From: Conchiformibius steedae
GTDB lineage: Bacteria; Pseudomonadota; Gammaproteobacteria; Burkholderiales; Neisseriaceae
Direction of reading: 5' to 3'
NCBI RefSeq assembly: GCF_014054725.1
Contig: NZ_CP059563.1
Span: 1 to 64,000, forward strand
Length of the DNA stretch: 64,000 nucleotides
Below, piece by piece: positions 30,578 through 34,370 of the stretch; positions within the stretch are counted from its first letter, which is position 1; the number at the start of each line of letters is the position of its first letter. The translations under genes and the position numbers were made by a program. Under the pieces are notes generated by a model. That model was given only the letters and a program-made list of their open reading frames with translations. It was not told the DNA's origin and made no database searches.

Positions 30578-30790
30578 TCACGGTAACCGGTTTTCAACTT
30601 CATGCTGATTATTTTCCGACTCACGCTGCCACTGCCCCACCTGCTTGCGGATAAACGACAATTGCGCGTGATAACGGCGGCAGCTCGGGCAAAACGGCAG
30701 ATGCAGGCGCAATTGCCAGCGTTCCCCGCGTGTCAATTCCCTGTCCTGCCCTTGCGACAACAGCTTGCAGGCTTCTTTACAATTCAACAT
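30578..30790 (-). CDS. Zinc-finger anti-sigma factor (MseR-like)
   Basis: The 70-residue cytoplasmic protein has Cys4 and Cys8 and an H-x3-C-x2-C motif in LRLHLPFCPSCRRY, the ZAS/zf-HC2 zinc-binding pattern of redox-sensitive anti-sigma factors. It overlaps the ECF sigma gene by 14 bases, which supports the pairing. In Neisseria the equivalent protein (MseR) holds the ECF sigma factor inactive. A release signal here, oxidant or metal displacing zinc, is inferred. ATG 30790 is used because an upstream start would extend further into the sigma gene. Confidence 0.88.
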   Translation of the reverse strand: MLNCKEACKLLSQGQDRELTRGERWQLRLHLPFCPSCRRYHAQLSFIRKQVGQWQRESENNQHEVENRLP

Positions 30791-31379
30791 ACGCCTTTCC
30801 TGATTCCTGATGCCAATCAAACCAACGGTGTTGCAAACACGCCCGCAGTCCGTTGCGGGCGCGGTGCAAAATCACATAACAGTTTTCGCGGCTGATGGCA
30901 AAATCCGCACAAATTTCCTCAACTTCCATGCCCATGATTTCGCGCAGATAAAAAATCCGTGCGGTGTCTTCGGGCAATCCGCGCAAACAGTTTTCTAAAG
31001 CGCGGCGAAATTCCTGCTGGTCGGTAAAGGTTTCGGGTTCGGCATCCCAAGCCTGCGGTGCAGCCGCTGCCAGCCAATGTCCGCGTTCGTCAAAACAGGC
31101 ATCAAAATTTTGCTCGATGGCGTGATTGTCTTCCTGCCATTCGTCCAAACTAACCATATTTTTCAGGCTGCGGAAATGGTCGCTGATTTTGTTTTTTAAA
31201 ATTGCCAGCACCCATGTTTTTAATCCCGAATCGCTGCGGAACTGACGGTGTTTGTCCATTGCGGCGACTAGGGCTTCCTGTACCATGTCTTCGGCAAGGT
31301 CTTCATCGCGCAACTGCACGCGGGCAAAACGCAAGACTTCGGGGCGCACCGCCGCCAACAGGGCTTGGAACTGTTCCAT
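30777..31379 (-). CDS. ECF-family RNA polymerase sigma factor
   Basis: The 200-residue protein has sigma region 2 (RFARVQLRDEDLAEDMVQEA, then KTWVLAILKNKISDHFR) and region 4 (LREIMGMEVEEICADFAISR, then NCYVILHRARNGLRACLQ). It follows hvfC by one base and overlaps its anti-sigma gene. The order sigma, anti-sigma, DUF2063, DUF692 matches the Neisseria ecf locus, whose sigma factor controls its own operon and methionine sulphoxide reductase. Autoregulation from the candidate promoter at 34341 is inferred. Confidence 0.94.
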   Translation of the reverse strand: MEQFQALLAAVRPEVLRFARVQLRDEDLAEDMVQEALVAAMDKHRQFRSDSGLKTWVLAILKNKISDHFRSLKNMVSLDEWQEDNHAIEQNFDACFDERGHWLAAAAPQAWDAEPETFTDQQEFRRALENCLRGLPEDTARIFYLREIMGMEVEEICADFAISRENCYVILHRARNGLRACLQHRWFDWHQESGKAYVEL

Positions 31380-31380
31380 G

Positions 31381-32100
31381 CTAATCCGCCACAGGCAGCA
31401 GCACGCCCGCCTTTATCCATGCACCCACGGCATCACGCAGCCATGCTTCGGCAGAATTGCCTGTTAATTCGTACAAGGCAGCGGCAAGACTGTTTAAGCT
31501 GTCGTCCTGACTGCTAAAATGTTCCAGTAAAAACAAATCGGTATTTTCCAATTTGCGGTAATAGACTTCGTTGTGCGGATTGCGCCACGTCAATACGGCG
31601 GTTTCGCCCTCGTCCAAGCGTTCCAAACCGCTGCTGACAAAATCGCAGGGGTAATGCGTTAAACGGGCAGCAGGCGAAAAACGCAGCAGGGTATCATCTT
31701 GCCAACTGCCGTCTGATTCGGGAAGCAAGGCGGTCTCGGCGTGCAACAGCGCGGTTTCAAAATCCATCATCGCCAACACATTATCGGGCAGTTTGTCTGC
31801 ACCGTTTTTGCTTTGCGCGTAGGCAAGAAATTGGGCGGGAATATCGTTAAAAAACGGCGATTCGGGCTTAGCTTCTGCCAAAAAACGGTTTTGCAGACGT
31901 TCCCACAAGGCAGCATCGGCAAAATGCTGGCTGTCGCTGAAACACAAATCCAAAAAGTTTTTAATATTATTGCGAACCAATCGGTTATAAACCGCCAAAC
32001 GCTCGGCAGGCATACCGGGGGGCGCAGGTTGGGACGGGTCGCGCACATAATTCGCCAGCATGGCTTGAAATTCGGCGCTGCTTATTTTGGCTTCAGACAT
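31381..32100 (-). CDS. hvfC: DUF2063 partner protein of the RiPP maturase (HvfC/BufC-like)
   Basis: The 239-residue protein has the DUF2063 N-terminal pattern [20 protein letters not shown], then [20 protein letters not shown]. The C-terminal half resembles a RiPP-recognition partner domain ([20 protein letters not shown]). Proteins of this type form a complex with the DUF692 enzyme and help it bind precursor peptides. The start [11 protein letters not shown] overlaps the hvfB stop by eight bases, indicating coupled translation. A 12-residue upstream extension inside hvfB is rejected. Confidence 0.92.
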
Positions 32101-32938
32101 AAGGTGCTTCCTCGGTTTGCCTTTGAATCGCAGCAATGCGCCCTACTTCGGCTTCCAGCTCGGCAAACGGCGGAAAATTGCTGTCGCGTTCCAATAATAC
32201 GGGCACAGGGTGGGGAATGCGTTGGCAGGTATAGGCAAATAAGTCCCACACCGCATCGCACACGGCTTGTCCGTGGGTGTCAATCAATAGGGTTTCGTGT
32301 TCTTCATCGTGTCCTGCCATGTGCATATAGTTCACACGCGGCAAATCCACGCGGTCAATATAATCGCGCGGCTGCACAATGCCGTGATTCACGGCATTAA
32401 CATACACATTATTGACATCCAAATGAATCCCACAATCCGCTTCCCGCGCCACGGCGTTTAAAAAACCCACTTCGTCCATTTCCGCCAAAGGGCTGTGGGC
32501 GTAATACGATGTATTTTCAACCGAAATCTGCTGTTCTAAAATATCCTGCACCATGCGGATACGCGCAGCGGTGTGGCGCACCGATTCTTCGGTAAATGGC
32601 AGCGGCAGCAGGTCGTACACATGCCCGTGATGGCTACAATAGCTTAAATGTTCAGAAAAAAAGCCGATGCGGTATTGACGCATAAATTCTTTGATTTGGC
32701 GGACAAAATCTATTTGCAAAGGGTCTTGTCCGCCCAAAGACAGCGATAAGCCGTGGCAGGCAATGGGGAAACGTTCTGCCACCGCATCAAATTTTTTGCG
32801 TGCCGCGCCACCCATTTTCAACCAGTTTTCAGGCGAAGCTTCAATAAATTGAATGGGCGAAACTTCGCGGTCTAATGCCAGAAAATCATCTGCCATACTG
32901 CGTTTGTATCCCAAACCTGCACCTTGTAAAGCGTTCAT
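32093..32938 (-). CDS. hvfB: MNIO (DUF692) multinuclear iron RiPP maturase (HvfB/BufB-like)
   Basis: DUF692/MNIO enzymes are TIM-barrel non-heme iron oxidases that rewrite cysteines in precursor peptides, giving oxazolone/thioamide or thiooxazole groups that bind copper. The 281-residue protein has [60 protein letters not shown] and LLERDSNFP, which contain the expected His, Asp and Glu metal ligands. ATG 32938 follows AAGGATAAAAAG. It lies 133 bases downstream of the precursor genes behind a large inverted repeat. Confidence 0.95.
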
Positions 32939-32959
32939 CTTTTTATCCTTTATATTTTT

Positions 32960-33004
32960 ATGCCATGCGTATGGCAGCTTGTGCAAACCGCCATACGCAT
33001 GGCA
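32960..33004. repeat. Nested inverted repeat between precursor and maturase genes
   Basis: TGCCATGCGTATGGC (32961-32975) and GCCATACGCATGGCA (32990-33004) are perfect 15-base inverted repeats separated by 14 bases. Each arm is also partly palindromic (GCCAT...ATGGC), so the RNA can fold as one long stem or two short ones. It lies in the only sizeable gap of the operon. No U-run follows on the minus strand, so it looks like an RNA-stability or partial attenuation element rather than a full terminator. Confidence 0.8.
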
Positions 33005-33071
33005 AAACAGACAGCTAAAACCAACAGGGCTTCAGCCTGCCTGTTTACTTTGGTTTAGAAACGGTTGTTAA

Positions 33072-33425
33072 TTAGTGACCGCATTTGCCTTCAGCCGCTT
33101 TTGCGCCTGTGGATTGATGTGCGCCGCCGCAATTGCCTTCGCCTGTTTTGGACGAATGTCCGCCACATGCACCTTCACGGGCTTTGGATTTGCCCGCACC
33201 ACATGCGCCCTCGCCTGCTTTAACACCGTGCGCTGCACCACACGCACCCGCAGTGGTTTTGCTGTGACGGTGTTTTTTGGTCAGGCTGCCGCGTTTGGCT
33301 TTTTTCAGTTTTTTCGCTTTTTGGGTTTTGGCGGTAGCGGCTTGATGATGGTCGGCAACGGCTGTTTGCGAACCCAGCAGCGCCAATGCACCCGCCAAGG
33401 CAATTAAAGAAGCAGTTTTTTTCAT
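33072..33425 (-). CDS. hvfA: Secreted Cys-rich RiPP precursor, HvfA-like, soluble type
   Basis: The 117-residue peptide has a signal sequence (SLIALAGALALLGSQTAVA) with predicted cleavage before DHHQ, a Lys-rich stretch (KAKKLKKAKRG) and five cysteines, each followed by Gly in AGACG, GEGACG, REGACG, GEGNCG and AEGKCG. These fit loosely the EG-x-CG core motifs modified by HvfB-type enzymes. Histidines are interspersed. The product should be periplasmic and bind copper after modification; this is by analogy. It shares the start MKKT-SLIALAGALAL with the neighbouring precursor, so the two are divergent paralogues. Confidence 0.88.
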   Translation of the reverse strand: MKKTASLIALAGALALLGSQTAVADHHQAATAKTQKAKKLKKAKRGSLTKKHRHSKTTAGACGAAHGVKAGEGACGAGKSKAREGACGGHSSKTGEGNCGGAHQSTGAKAAEGKCGH

Positions 33426-33476
33426 GGTTTCATCCTTTTAAATTTCAATTGATTCAATCATAAAGCGGGCGCAAGA

Positions 33477-33655
33477 TTATTTTTGCTCGCCGCCGCATTT
33501 ACCCTCACCGCACTTGCCTTCGCCCGCTTTGCTGCCCGCAGCCGATGCACCGCCGCATTTGCCTTCACCACATTTACCCTCGCCCGCTTTGCTGGCAGCA
33601 GCCGATGCCGCACCACCGCATTTACCCTCACCGCATTTGCCTTCGCCCGCTTTAG
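33477..33655 (-). repeat. Three-unit minisatellite encoding the EGKCG blocks
   Basis: Three near-identical units of about 60-63 bases encode GEGKCGEGKCGG plus an Ala/Ser/Lys spacer. Synonymous positions are largely shared between units, which points to recent duplication or gene conversion, so core number may vary between strains in steps of two motifs. Confidence 0.8.
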
Positions 33656-33773
33656 CAGCAGAGGCAGGCTGTTGTTGCGCGGCGGGGGCTGCGCTGTTTT
33701 GTGATGCGGAATCCTGACAAGCCGCCAATGCCAACGCACCTGCCAAAGCAATCAGAGAAGAAGTTTTTTTCAT
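33477..33773 (-). CDS. hvfA: Lipoprotein-type RiPP precursor with six EGKCG motifs, HvfA-like
   Basis: The 98-residue peptide has a lipobox LAAC with Cys19 instead of a signal peptidase I site, an Ala/Gln linker, and three copies of the block GEGKCGEGKCGG. The six EGKCG cysteines are at residues 47, 52, 68, 73, 88 and 93. Each EGKCG is an expected substrate of an HvfB/HvfC-type maturase. If lipidated, the product would be a membrane-anchored copper ligand beside the soluble paralogue. It lies 33 bases downstream of the HvfX-like gene and has its own good ribosome site (AAAGGACTTG). Confidence 0.9.
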   Translation of the reverse strand: MKKTSSLIALAGALALAACQDSASQNSAAPAAQQQPASAAKAGEGKCGEGKCGGAASAAASKAGEGKCGEGKCGGASAAGSKAGEGKCGEGKCGGEQK

Positions 33774-33806
33774 GGTTCAAGTCCTTTGTTAAACAGTTAA
33801 AGAAAA

Positions 33807-34307
33807 TCAATTGGTTTCATGCGTTACCGCTGCATCCGCAGCTTTACGCCCGAATAAAACATAATCCAGCGACCAACGCCCCATGCCTTGCAACAGCAAA
33901 GGCAGCAGCATCAGCAGATACACCAGCGCCATTTTGTAGCCGTTGTTGCAAACATTGTAGCCGTTGCCGCCGTGTACCGCCGCCCAAGCCACCGCCGTCA
34001 GCACAGCCAACACCAAAGCACCAGCACGACCGAACAATCCCAACACCAGCAGCAGCGGCACCAGCAATTCCGCGCCCATTGCCAACGCCCAATTAAAATC
34101 GGCAGGCAACACATTAAACGGAAACGGAAACGATTGCTGGATATCGGCAAACCAGTTTTGTCCGCGCCATTTTTCCAAACCTGCTTCCGCAAATTCATAA
34201 GCAACAAACAAACGCAGTGCCAGCAGCGACACATCTTTGCCGATGCCTTCGGAAAAATGTTTTAAACAGCGCAGCCGTTTGGGGCAGCAGAGGCGTGGAT
34301 TCATCAT
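33807..34307 (-). CDS. DoxX-like membrane protein of the RiPP operon (HvfX-like)
   Basis: The 166-residue protein has four hydrophobic helices, with LLALRLFVAYEFAEAGLEKW at the start and LAMGAELLVPLLLVLGLFGR and YKMALVYLLMLLPLLLQG later. DoxX-type proteins regularly accompany DUF692-DUF2063 RiPP operons and are called HvfX in such loci; their role in copper-peptide maturation or membrane redox coupling is not settled. It is the first gene of the leftward operon and follows the candidate ECF promoter. Several cysteines near the N-terminus (RLCCPKRLRC) might be metal- or redox-active. Confidence 0.88.
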   Translation of the reverse strand: MMNPRLCCPKRLRCLKHFSEGIGKDVSLLALRLFVAYEFAEAGLEKWRGQNWFADIQQSFPFPFNVLPADFNWALAMGAELLVPLLLVLGLFGRAGALVLAVLTAVAWAAVHGGNGYNVCNNGYKMALVYLLMLLPLLLQGMGRWSLDYVLFGRKAADAAVTHETN

Positions 34308-34340
34308 AAGGTGTTTCCCTGTTTGTGAAGTGTTATACCC

Positions 34341-34370
34341 GTTAGACGGACAAGGCAGGCGTTTTCTTAC
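34341..34370 (-). promoter_or_regulatory. Candidate ECF sigma promoter of the RiPP operon
   Basis: On the minus strand GTAAG (34370-34366) and CGTCTAAC (34348-34341) are separated by 17 bases. This fits the general ECF pattern of an AAC/AAG-type -35 and a CGTC-type -10, about 35 bases before the first start codon. No competing sigma-70 promoter is obvious. The assignment is inference from one site. Confidence 0.45.

Follow-up and report, generated by a model that had tools for sequence, protein, structure and literature searches.

The 5-thiooxazole group has been described in fontiphorin, oxazolin and gonophorin, together with copper binding and a triacylated peptide, NedA (PMC12668002, PMC12636315). 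Gonophorin, the product of a one-precursor operon of Neisseria gonorrhoeae, carries 5-thiooxazole and was found with one or two copper ions (PMC12668002). NedA, a lipidated EGKCG peptide of Neisseria dentiae that was produced in Escherichia coli, is triacylated and shows a change of -12 Da over three EGKCG motifs (PMC12636315). Here we analyse an operon of Conchiformibius steedae (assembly GCF_014054725.1) that lies within the first 64,000 nucleotides of contig NZ_CP059563.1, the stretch referred to below as the window. The operon encodes two unlike precursors of this kind, predicted to be a lipoprotein and a soluble periplasmic protein, beside a single DUF692 (MNIO) enzyme, and the same pairing recurs in every two-precursor operon that we identified in the Neisseriaceae.

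Gene content and the two precursors

We identified seven genes on the minus strand between 34370 and 30578, all in frame and in the order doxX/hvfX, hvfA1, hvfA2, hvfB (MNIO), hvfC, an extracytoplasmic function (ECF) sigma factor and a zinc-binding anti-sigma (ZAS) protein, preceded by a SigmaE-type promoter whose -35 element has its first base at 34370 (Table 1). The genes hvfB and hvfC overlap by 8 nucleotides (nt), hvfC and the sigma gene are 1 nt apart, and the sigma and anti-sigma genes overlap by 14 nt. The five genes other than the precursors all pass curated family cut-offs in hidden Markov model (HMM) searches. HMM matches and coordinates thus confirm the sequence-only reading, which had described a leftward set of DoxX, two Cys-rich proteins, DUF692, DUF2063, an ECF sigma and a zinc-finger anti-sigma with short gaps or overlaps. 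Its assignment of the operon to a class of copper-binding ribosomally synthesized and post-translationally modified peptides (RiPPs) is likewise supported by the family matches to HvfB, HvfC and the HvfA repeat domain. The locus has the features that define captophorin/oxazolin (Hvf, EGKCG) operons, namely an HvfB-family MNIO, a PME1 partner with DUF2063 and a domain like the RiPP recognition element (RRE), and signal-bearing EGKCG-type precursors. The enzyme retains N176, D220 and H222 as site-3 iron ligands, matching N175, D242 and H244 of HvfB, residues whose replacement inactivates HvfB (PMC13419390).

Table 1. Features of the operon, listed in minus-strand order
Feature	Position in window	Strand	Basis
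SigmaE-type promoter, GTAAGAAAA-13 nt-CGTCTAA, before doxX	34342..34370	-	match to consensus of PMC2893595
doxX/hvfX, membrane protein	33807..34307	-	PF07681, E 2.9e-21; NF050144, 136.9 bits (cut-off 80)
hvfA1, lipobox precursor (ALAA/C19), six EGKCG motifs	33477..33773	-	NF050137, three stretches; PROSITE-style rule
hvfA2, precursor with Sec leader (SPI type, AVA/D), five lone motifs	33072..33425	-	NF050137; sequence rule
Two adjoining stem-loops between hvfA2 and hvfB	32961..33046	-	133-nt gap; minimum free energy -58.6 kcal/mol; z -7.3 against mononucleotide shuffles
hvfB, MNIO (DUF692) enzyme	32093..32938	-	PF05114, 330 bits; HvfB NF003818, 372 (cut-off 360)
hvfC, DUF2063/RRE partner protein (PME1)	31381..32100	-	NF050145, 168.7 (cut-off 142); DUF2063; NGO1945_C; 3DEE, E 1e-38
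ECF sigma factor	30777..31379	-	TIGR02943, 209 bits (cut-off 162)
ZAS anti-sigma	30578..30790	-	NF052368, 79 bits (cut-off 50); C4/H30/C34/C37 as in MseR

The HvfA1 protein starts with MKKTSSLIALAGALALAAC, which contains a canonical lipobox (ALAAC at 19), and continues with three EGKCGEGKCG doublets; by sequence rule it qualifies as a RiPP lipoprotein (DAG-RiPP). HvfA2 starts with MKKTASLIALAGALALLGSQTAVAD, a leader of the signal peptidase I (SPI) type, followed by a basic and His-rich stretch and by five lone motifs in the order AGACG, EGACG, EGACG, EGNCG and EGKCG. Matches to the HvfA repeat domain NF050137 (cut-off 19.5 bits) reach 57.7 bits for HvfA1 and, only narrowly above it, 20.9 for HvfA2; against the HvfA equivalog NF050188 the two proteins score 74.4 and 27.3 bits, below its cut-off of 95. 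They are relatives of HvfA, not equivalogs by that cut-off. The earlier proposal of one membrane-anchored and one periplasmic precursor agrees with the lipobox of HvfA1 and the AxA-type leader of HvfA2, which predict these destinations. Aligned position by position, the lipoprotein and soluble leaders are nearly identical, the soluble copy having Ser or Gly where the lipobox Cys stands, which suggests that the pair arose by duplication followed by a slight change in the leader.

A genome search placed one MNIO in the 2.2-Mb genome and found HvfA matches only in these two precursors, with no orphan precursor or second MNIO elsewhere. Since 37 further Neisseriaceae genomes carry largely the same genes, the set is not a product of chance, and this recurrence also rules out chance repeat open reading frames. 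The N-terminus of HvfX is Cys-rich here (C7, C8 and C14; window 34266-34289), and one N-terminal Cys together with one Cys near residue 112 recurs across most of its clade.

The predicted lipidated/soluble pairing among relatives

Among 80 Neisseriaceae genomes searched, 38 encode an MNIO, and the stretch before the MNIO gene was read in all 38. Two precursors occur in 12 of these genomes, and in all 12 the pair combines one canonical lipobox with one SPI-type leader. The lipoprotein gene comes first in ten and second in two (G063 and G064, from another genus). In a tree of the MNIO, built by a quick method with support by the Shimodaira-Hasegawa-like approximate likelihood ratio test (SH-aLRT) only, the tandem state requires two changes, and the starred branches force two. 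On this tree the tandem pair is taken to have originated at least twice, and one lineage has the two genes in the opposite order. Most one-precursor operons encode a leader of the SPI type, and five (G050, G048, G033, G013 and G047) show a borderline lipobox; the single precursor of G030 is frameshifted. Relatives with a single precursor are for the most part similar to the soluble copy, and we infer that the soluble precursor probably came first.

What appears to be new is the regular pairing of a lipidated with a soluble form, which arose at least twice, together with the seeming contraction of the sigma regulon described below; the operon type itself is known. We found no description of the pairing in the literature searched, which held few subscription journals and main texts only; a survey of MNIO enzymes mentions tandem precursors in general, for some bufferin biosynthetic gene clusters (PMC12452194). 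The motif sets can also differ beside one enzyme: in G037 the lipoprotein carries EANCG and the soluble copy EGKCG, EGTCG and EGSCG. EAACG or EANCG replaces EGKCG beside a like MNIO in two loci (L024 of G003 and L011 of G037), which may form a substrate-specificity series. Locus L079 (G015) has tandem precursors and a SigmaE-type promoter, but the stretch read past hvfC contains no sigma gene; the gene is perhaps elsewhere.

The MNIO of C. steedae groups with the tandem Neisseria clade at 84% identity, and HvfC, the sigma factor and MsrAB are about 60-72% identical to those genomes. Transfer of the operon into Conchiformibius was considered and rejected, as the MNIO shows no clear excess over the HvfC, sigma and MsrAB identities. 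The operon was not found in the sister genome G001, whose assembly is fragmentary and whose AGCS contig gave no information.

A SigmaE-type promoter and its regulon

The neisserial SigmaE consensus is GTMAGBWTT/CGTCTAAH with a spacer of 12-13 nt (PMC2893595). Upstream of doxX we find GTAAGAAAA, 13 nt and CGTCTAAC, with an A about six bases downstream. The full published -35 sequence GTNAGNNTT gave no match in the search, because the -35 of the operon reads GTAAGAAAA. We scanned 25 oriented operons for RTMAG-15/18-CGTCTA; doxX is present in 24 of these. The motif is present in 21 of the 24 doxX operons, as a single copy on the coding strand and invariably before doxX, against an expectation from shuffled sequences of about 0.7 per strand over the whole set. 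It is absent in G063, G064 and G011, and in G003, which is without doxX. The conserved promoter thus supports the earlier claim that the sigma factor drives the operon; the oxidative or metal stress named as its stimulus stays a proposal, the literature on this being mixed.

The strict SigmaE motif occurs once in the C. steedae genome, and a looser pattern gives four more matches with shorter spacers, fewer than a reversed control yields. In the meningococcus, msrAB is the strongest SigmaE target (81-fold). The region ahead of msrAB showed no SigmaE motif in C. steedae or in ten further genomes that we inspected; msrAB carries the motif in N. gonorrhoeae and in G037, G020, G015, G048, G051 and G013. 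Given the single strict motif and none at msrAB, the regulon may have shrunk to the operon itself, the alternative being a diverged msrAB site. The neisserial SigmaE/MseR regulon is recognised by the ZAS residues, a promoter before doxX and a promoter before msrAB, and the first two are present here and the third is absent. The proposed likeness to Neisseria ecf/mseR accordingly holds for operon layout and promoter and fails for the msrAB link. The msrAB of C. steedae (L075, contig C3, about 1,761,400-1,763,000) is a Trx-MsrA-MsrB fusion gene.

A stem-loop between the precursors and the enzyme

In each of the 25 operons read, the gap from the last precursor to the MNIO gene contains a stem of 10 base pairs or more, with at least five G-C pairs in 22 of them; a stem that GC-rich occurs in only one of 24 gaps between doxX and the precursor. 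The position is kept and the sequence is not conserved, and the identity of the stem varies, from an inverted DNA-uptake sequence in many Neisseria to a terminator with a T-run in N. gonorrhoeae. Terminators made of inverted uptake sequences are frequent in Neisseria, so part of this conservation is expected at any gene junction, and 5 of the 12 gaps that separate two precursors have a stem as well. The hairpin of C. steedae was also considered as a dispersed repeat, and the exact arm was found at this site alone. Across the 25 operons the stem-loop is a possible attenuator or messenger RNA (mRNA) stabiliser.

In a meningococcal mseR mutant, 187,292 reads were reported for doxX, 60,516 for hvfA, 63,164 for hvfB, 40,218 for hvfC and 9,997 for sigma. 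Divided by rough lengths of the gonococcal orthologues, these counts give about 420, 200, 75, 54 and 16 reads per base, a drop at every step, including the one across the stem-loop. It is plausible that the stem-loop gives an excess of precursor over enzyme.

Proposed mechanism and alternatives

We consider it likely that one maturation system supplies the membrane face and the periplasm with copper-binding thiooxazole peptides under a self-amplifying sigma factor. A captophorin/oxazolin (Hvf-type) precursor gene would have been duplicated and its copies divided by destination. One HvfB/HvfC pair would act on both precursors in the cytoplasm, before export, converting the Cys within every (E)GxCG motif to 5-thiooxazole. 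After export HvfA1 would receive its lipid at Cys19 and become fixed to a membrane, and Gln at +2 would favour the outer one by E. coli rules; HvfA2 would be cleaved by signal peptidase I and remain soluble. Both peptides would bind copper, HvfA1 at the membrane face and HvfA2 in the periplasm. The ECF sigma would direct transcription of all seven genes, among them its own, from the doxX promoter and would be restrained by the zinc-finger anti-sigma, and the stem-loop would reduce read-through or stabilise the upstream mRNA, keeping precursors above enzymes and sigma. More tentatively, and with low confidence, we suggest that a two-compartment copper buffer, with an anchored and a soluble peptide sharing copper between membrane and periplasm, has evolved at least twice in the Neisseriaceae and that the sigma factor here serves only this operon, its methionine-repair target having been lost.

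The operon might instead serve mainly in envelope defence against an oxidant such as hypochlorite, with the peptides scavenging the oxidant and copper incidental, which seems to us rather doubtful. Hypochlorite induces the homologous doxX cluster through RpoE2 in Haemophilus influenzae (PMC7907618), and the anti-sigma carries redox-type ZAS residues. However, H2O2, diamide and singlet oxygen do not induce the meningococcal sigma factor (PMC2893595), msrAB, the methionine-repair partner of sigma in the meningococcus, lacks the motif in this genome, and the products of EGKCG motifs bind copper. We found no report of copper as the stimulus of this sigma in the literature searched.

Several points weigh against the two-compartment copper system. 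Leader types were assigned by sequence rules, PROSITE-style for the lipobox. The stem of C. steedae is a long hairpin beside a second one, without a perfect U-run. The weakest step is the maturation of HvfA2 as a good HvfBC substrate. HvfA2 is degenerate, with lone motifs in place of doublets, Lys mostly substituted and a match that only just clears the repeat-domain cut-off, and the related FonBC left a single-repeat minimal peptide unmodified, so HvfA2 may be a poor substrate. We regard it as unlikely, though, that only HvfA1 is matured and that HvfA2 is now a distinct, largely unmodified periplasmic Cys/His-rich buffer of metal or oxidant. HvfA2 lacks the EGKCGEGKCG doublets that A2 copies elsewhere in its clade retain, its spacer is basic and His-rich, and FonBC required two repeats in its minimal substrate; yet HvfA2 keeps Gly after Cys at all five sites and Glu-Gly ahead of it at four of five, and lone EGSCG or EGTCG motifs also occur in Neisseria operons with one precursor, among them that of the gonococcus. 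FonBC also accepted Ala at the Lys position and preferred a small residue after Cys, as HvfA2 has. A neutral duplication, leaving the second precursor without a role of its own, might be suggested by near-identical leaders and by repeat numbers that vary freely among species. It is most improbable given that all 12 tandem operons combine a lipobox with an SPI-type leader, a state with two origins and with the order reversed in one of them.

On the preferred reading of a shared maturation system, the two precursors form a natural pair, with the same kind of modified core in two compartments, in which the effect of location on a captophorin can be tested. The fixed stem-loop predicts an excess of precursor, and the sigma regulon is predicted to be reduced to a single promoter.

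Other features of the window

At 370-779 the window contains about 27 head-to-tail copies of the 15-base unit GGAAGCTCAACGGGC, which probably encode a pentapeptide-type repeat protein. The uptake-sequence dialect of the window is AGGCTGCCTGAA (AG-simDUS), with five copies; none of seven other neisserial dialects was found in it.

Comparison with known systems

The HvfA, HvfB and HvfC chemistry proposed for this operon is that of the H. influenzae oxazolin hvf operon and bufferin gene clusters (PMC13419390, PMC12452194). The bufferin 1 and 2 precursors, however, belong to families other than those of HvfA1 and HvfA2, and rpoE2 of H. influenzae lies in a gene region separate from the doxX cluster (PMC7907618), unlike here. 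The N. meningitidis SigmaE/MseR operon NMB2140-NMB2145 has a like layout, ZAS residues, promoter consensus and autoregulation (PMC2893595, PMC3240639), but it comprises six genes with msrAB as a target, whereas the operon here has seven and no msrAB motif. NedA is a lipobox EGKCG precursor matured by an MNIO and PME1, as proposed here for HvfA1 (PMC12636315); the main text of that report covers the lipidated precursor alone, while the operon described here has a soluble precursor too. G018 (L004), which may be N. dentiae, encodes a lipoprotein precursor with three EGKCG motifs plus a second, soluble precursor. The gonophorin operon ngoABC, of the captophorin class, is alike in HvfX, MNIO (67% identical), PME1, sigma, anti-sigma, promoter and gene order, but it has one SPI-type precursor where the operon of C. 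steedae has two, one of them a predicted lipoprotein.

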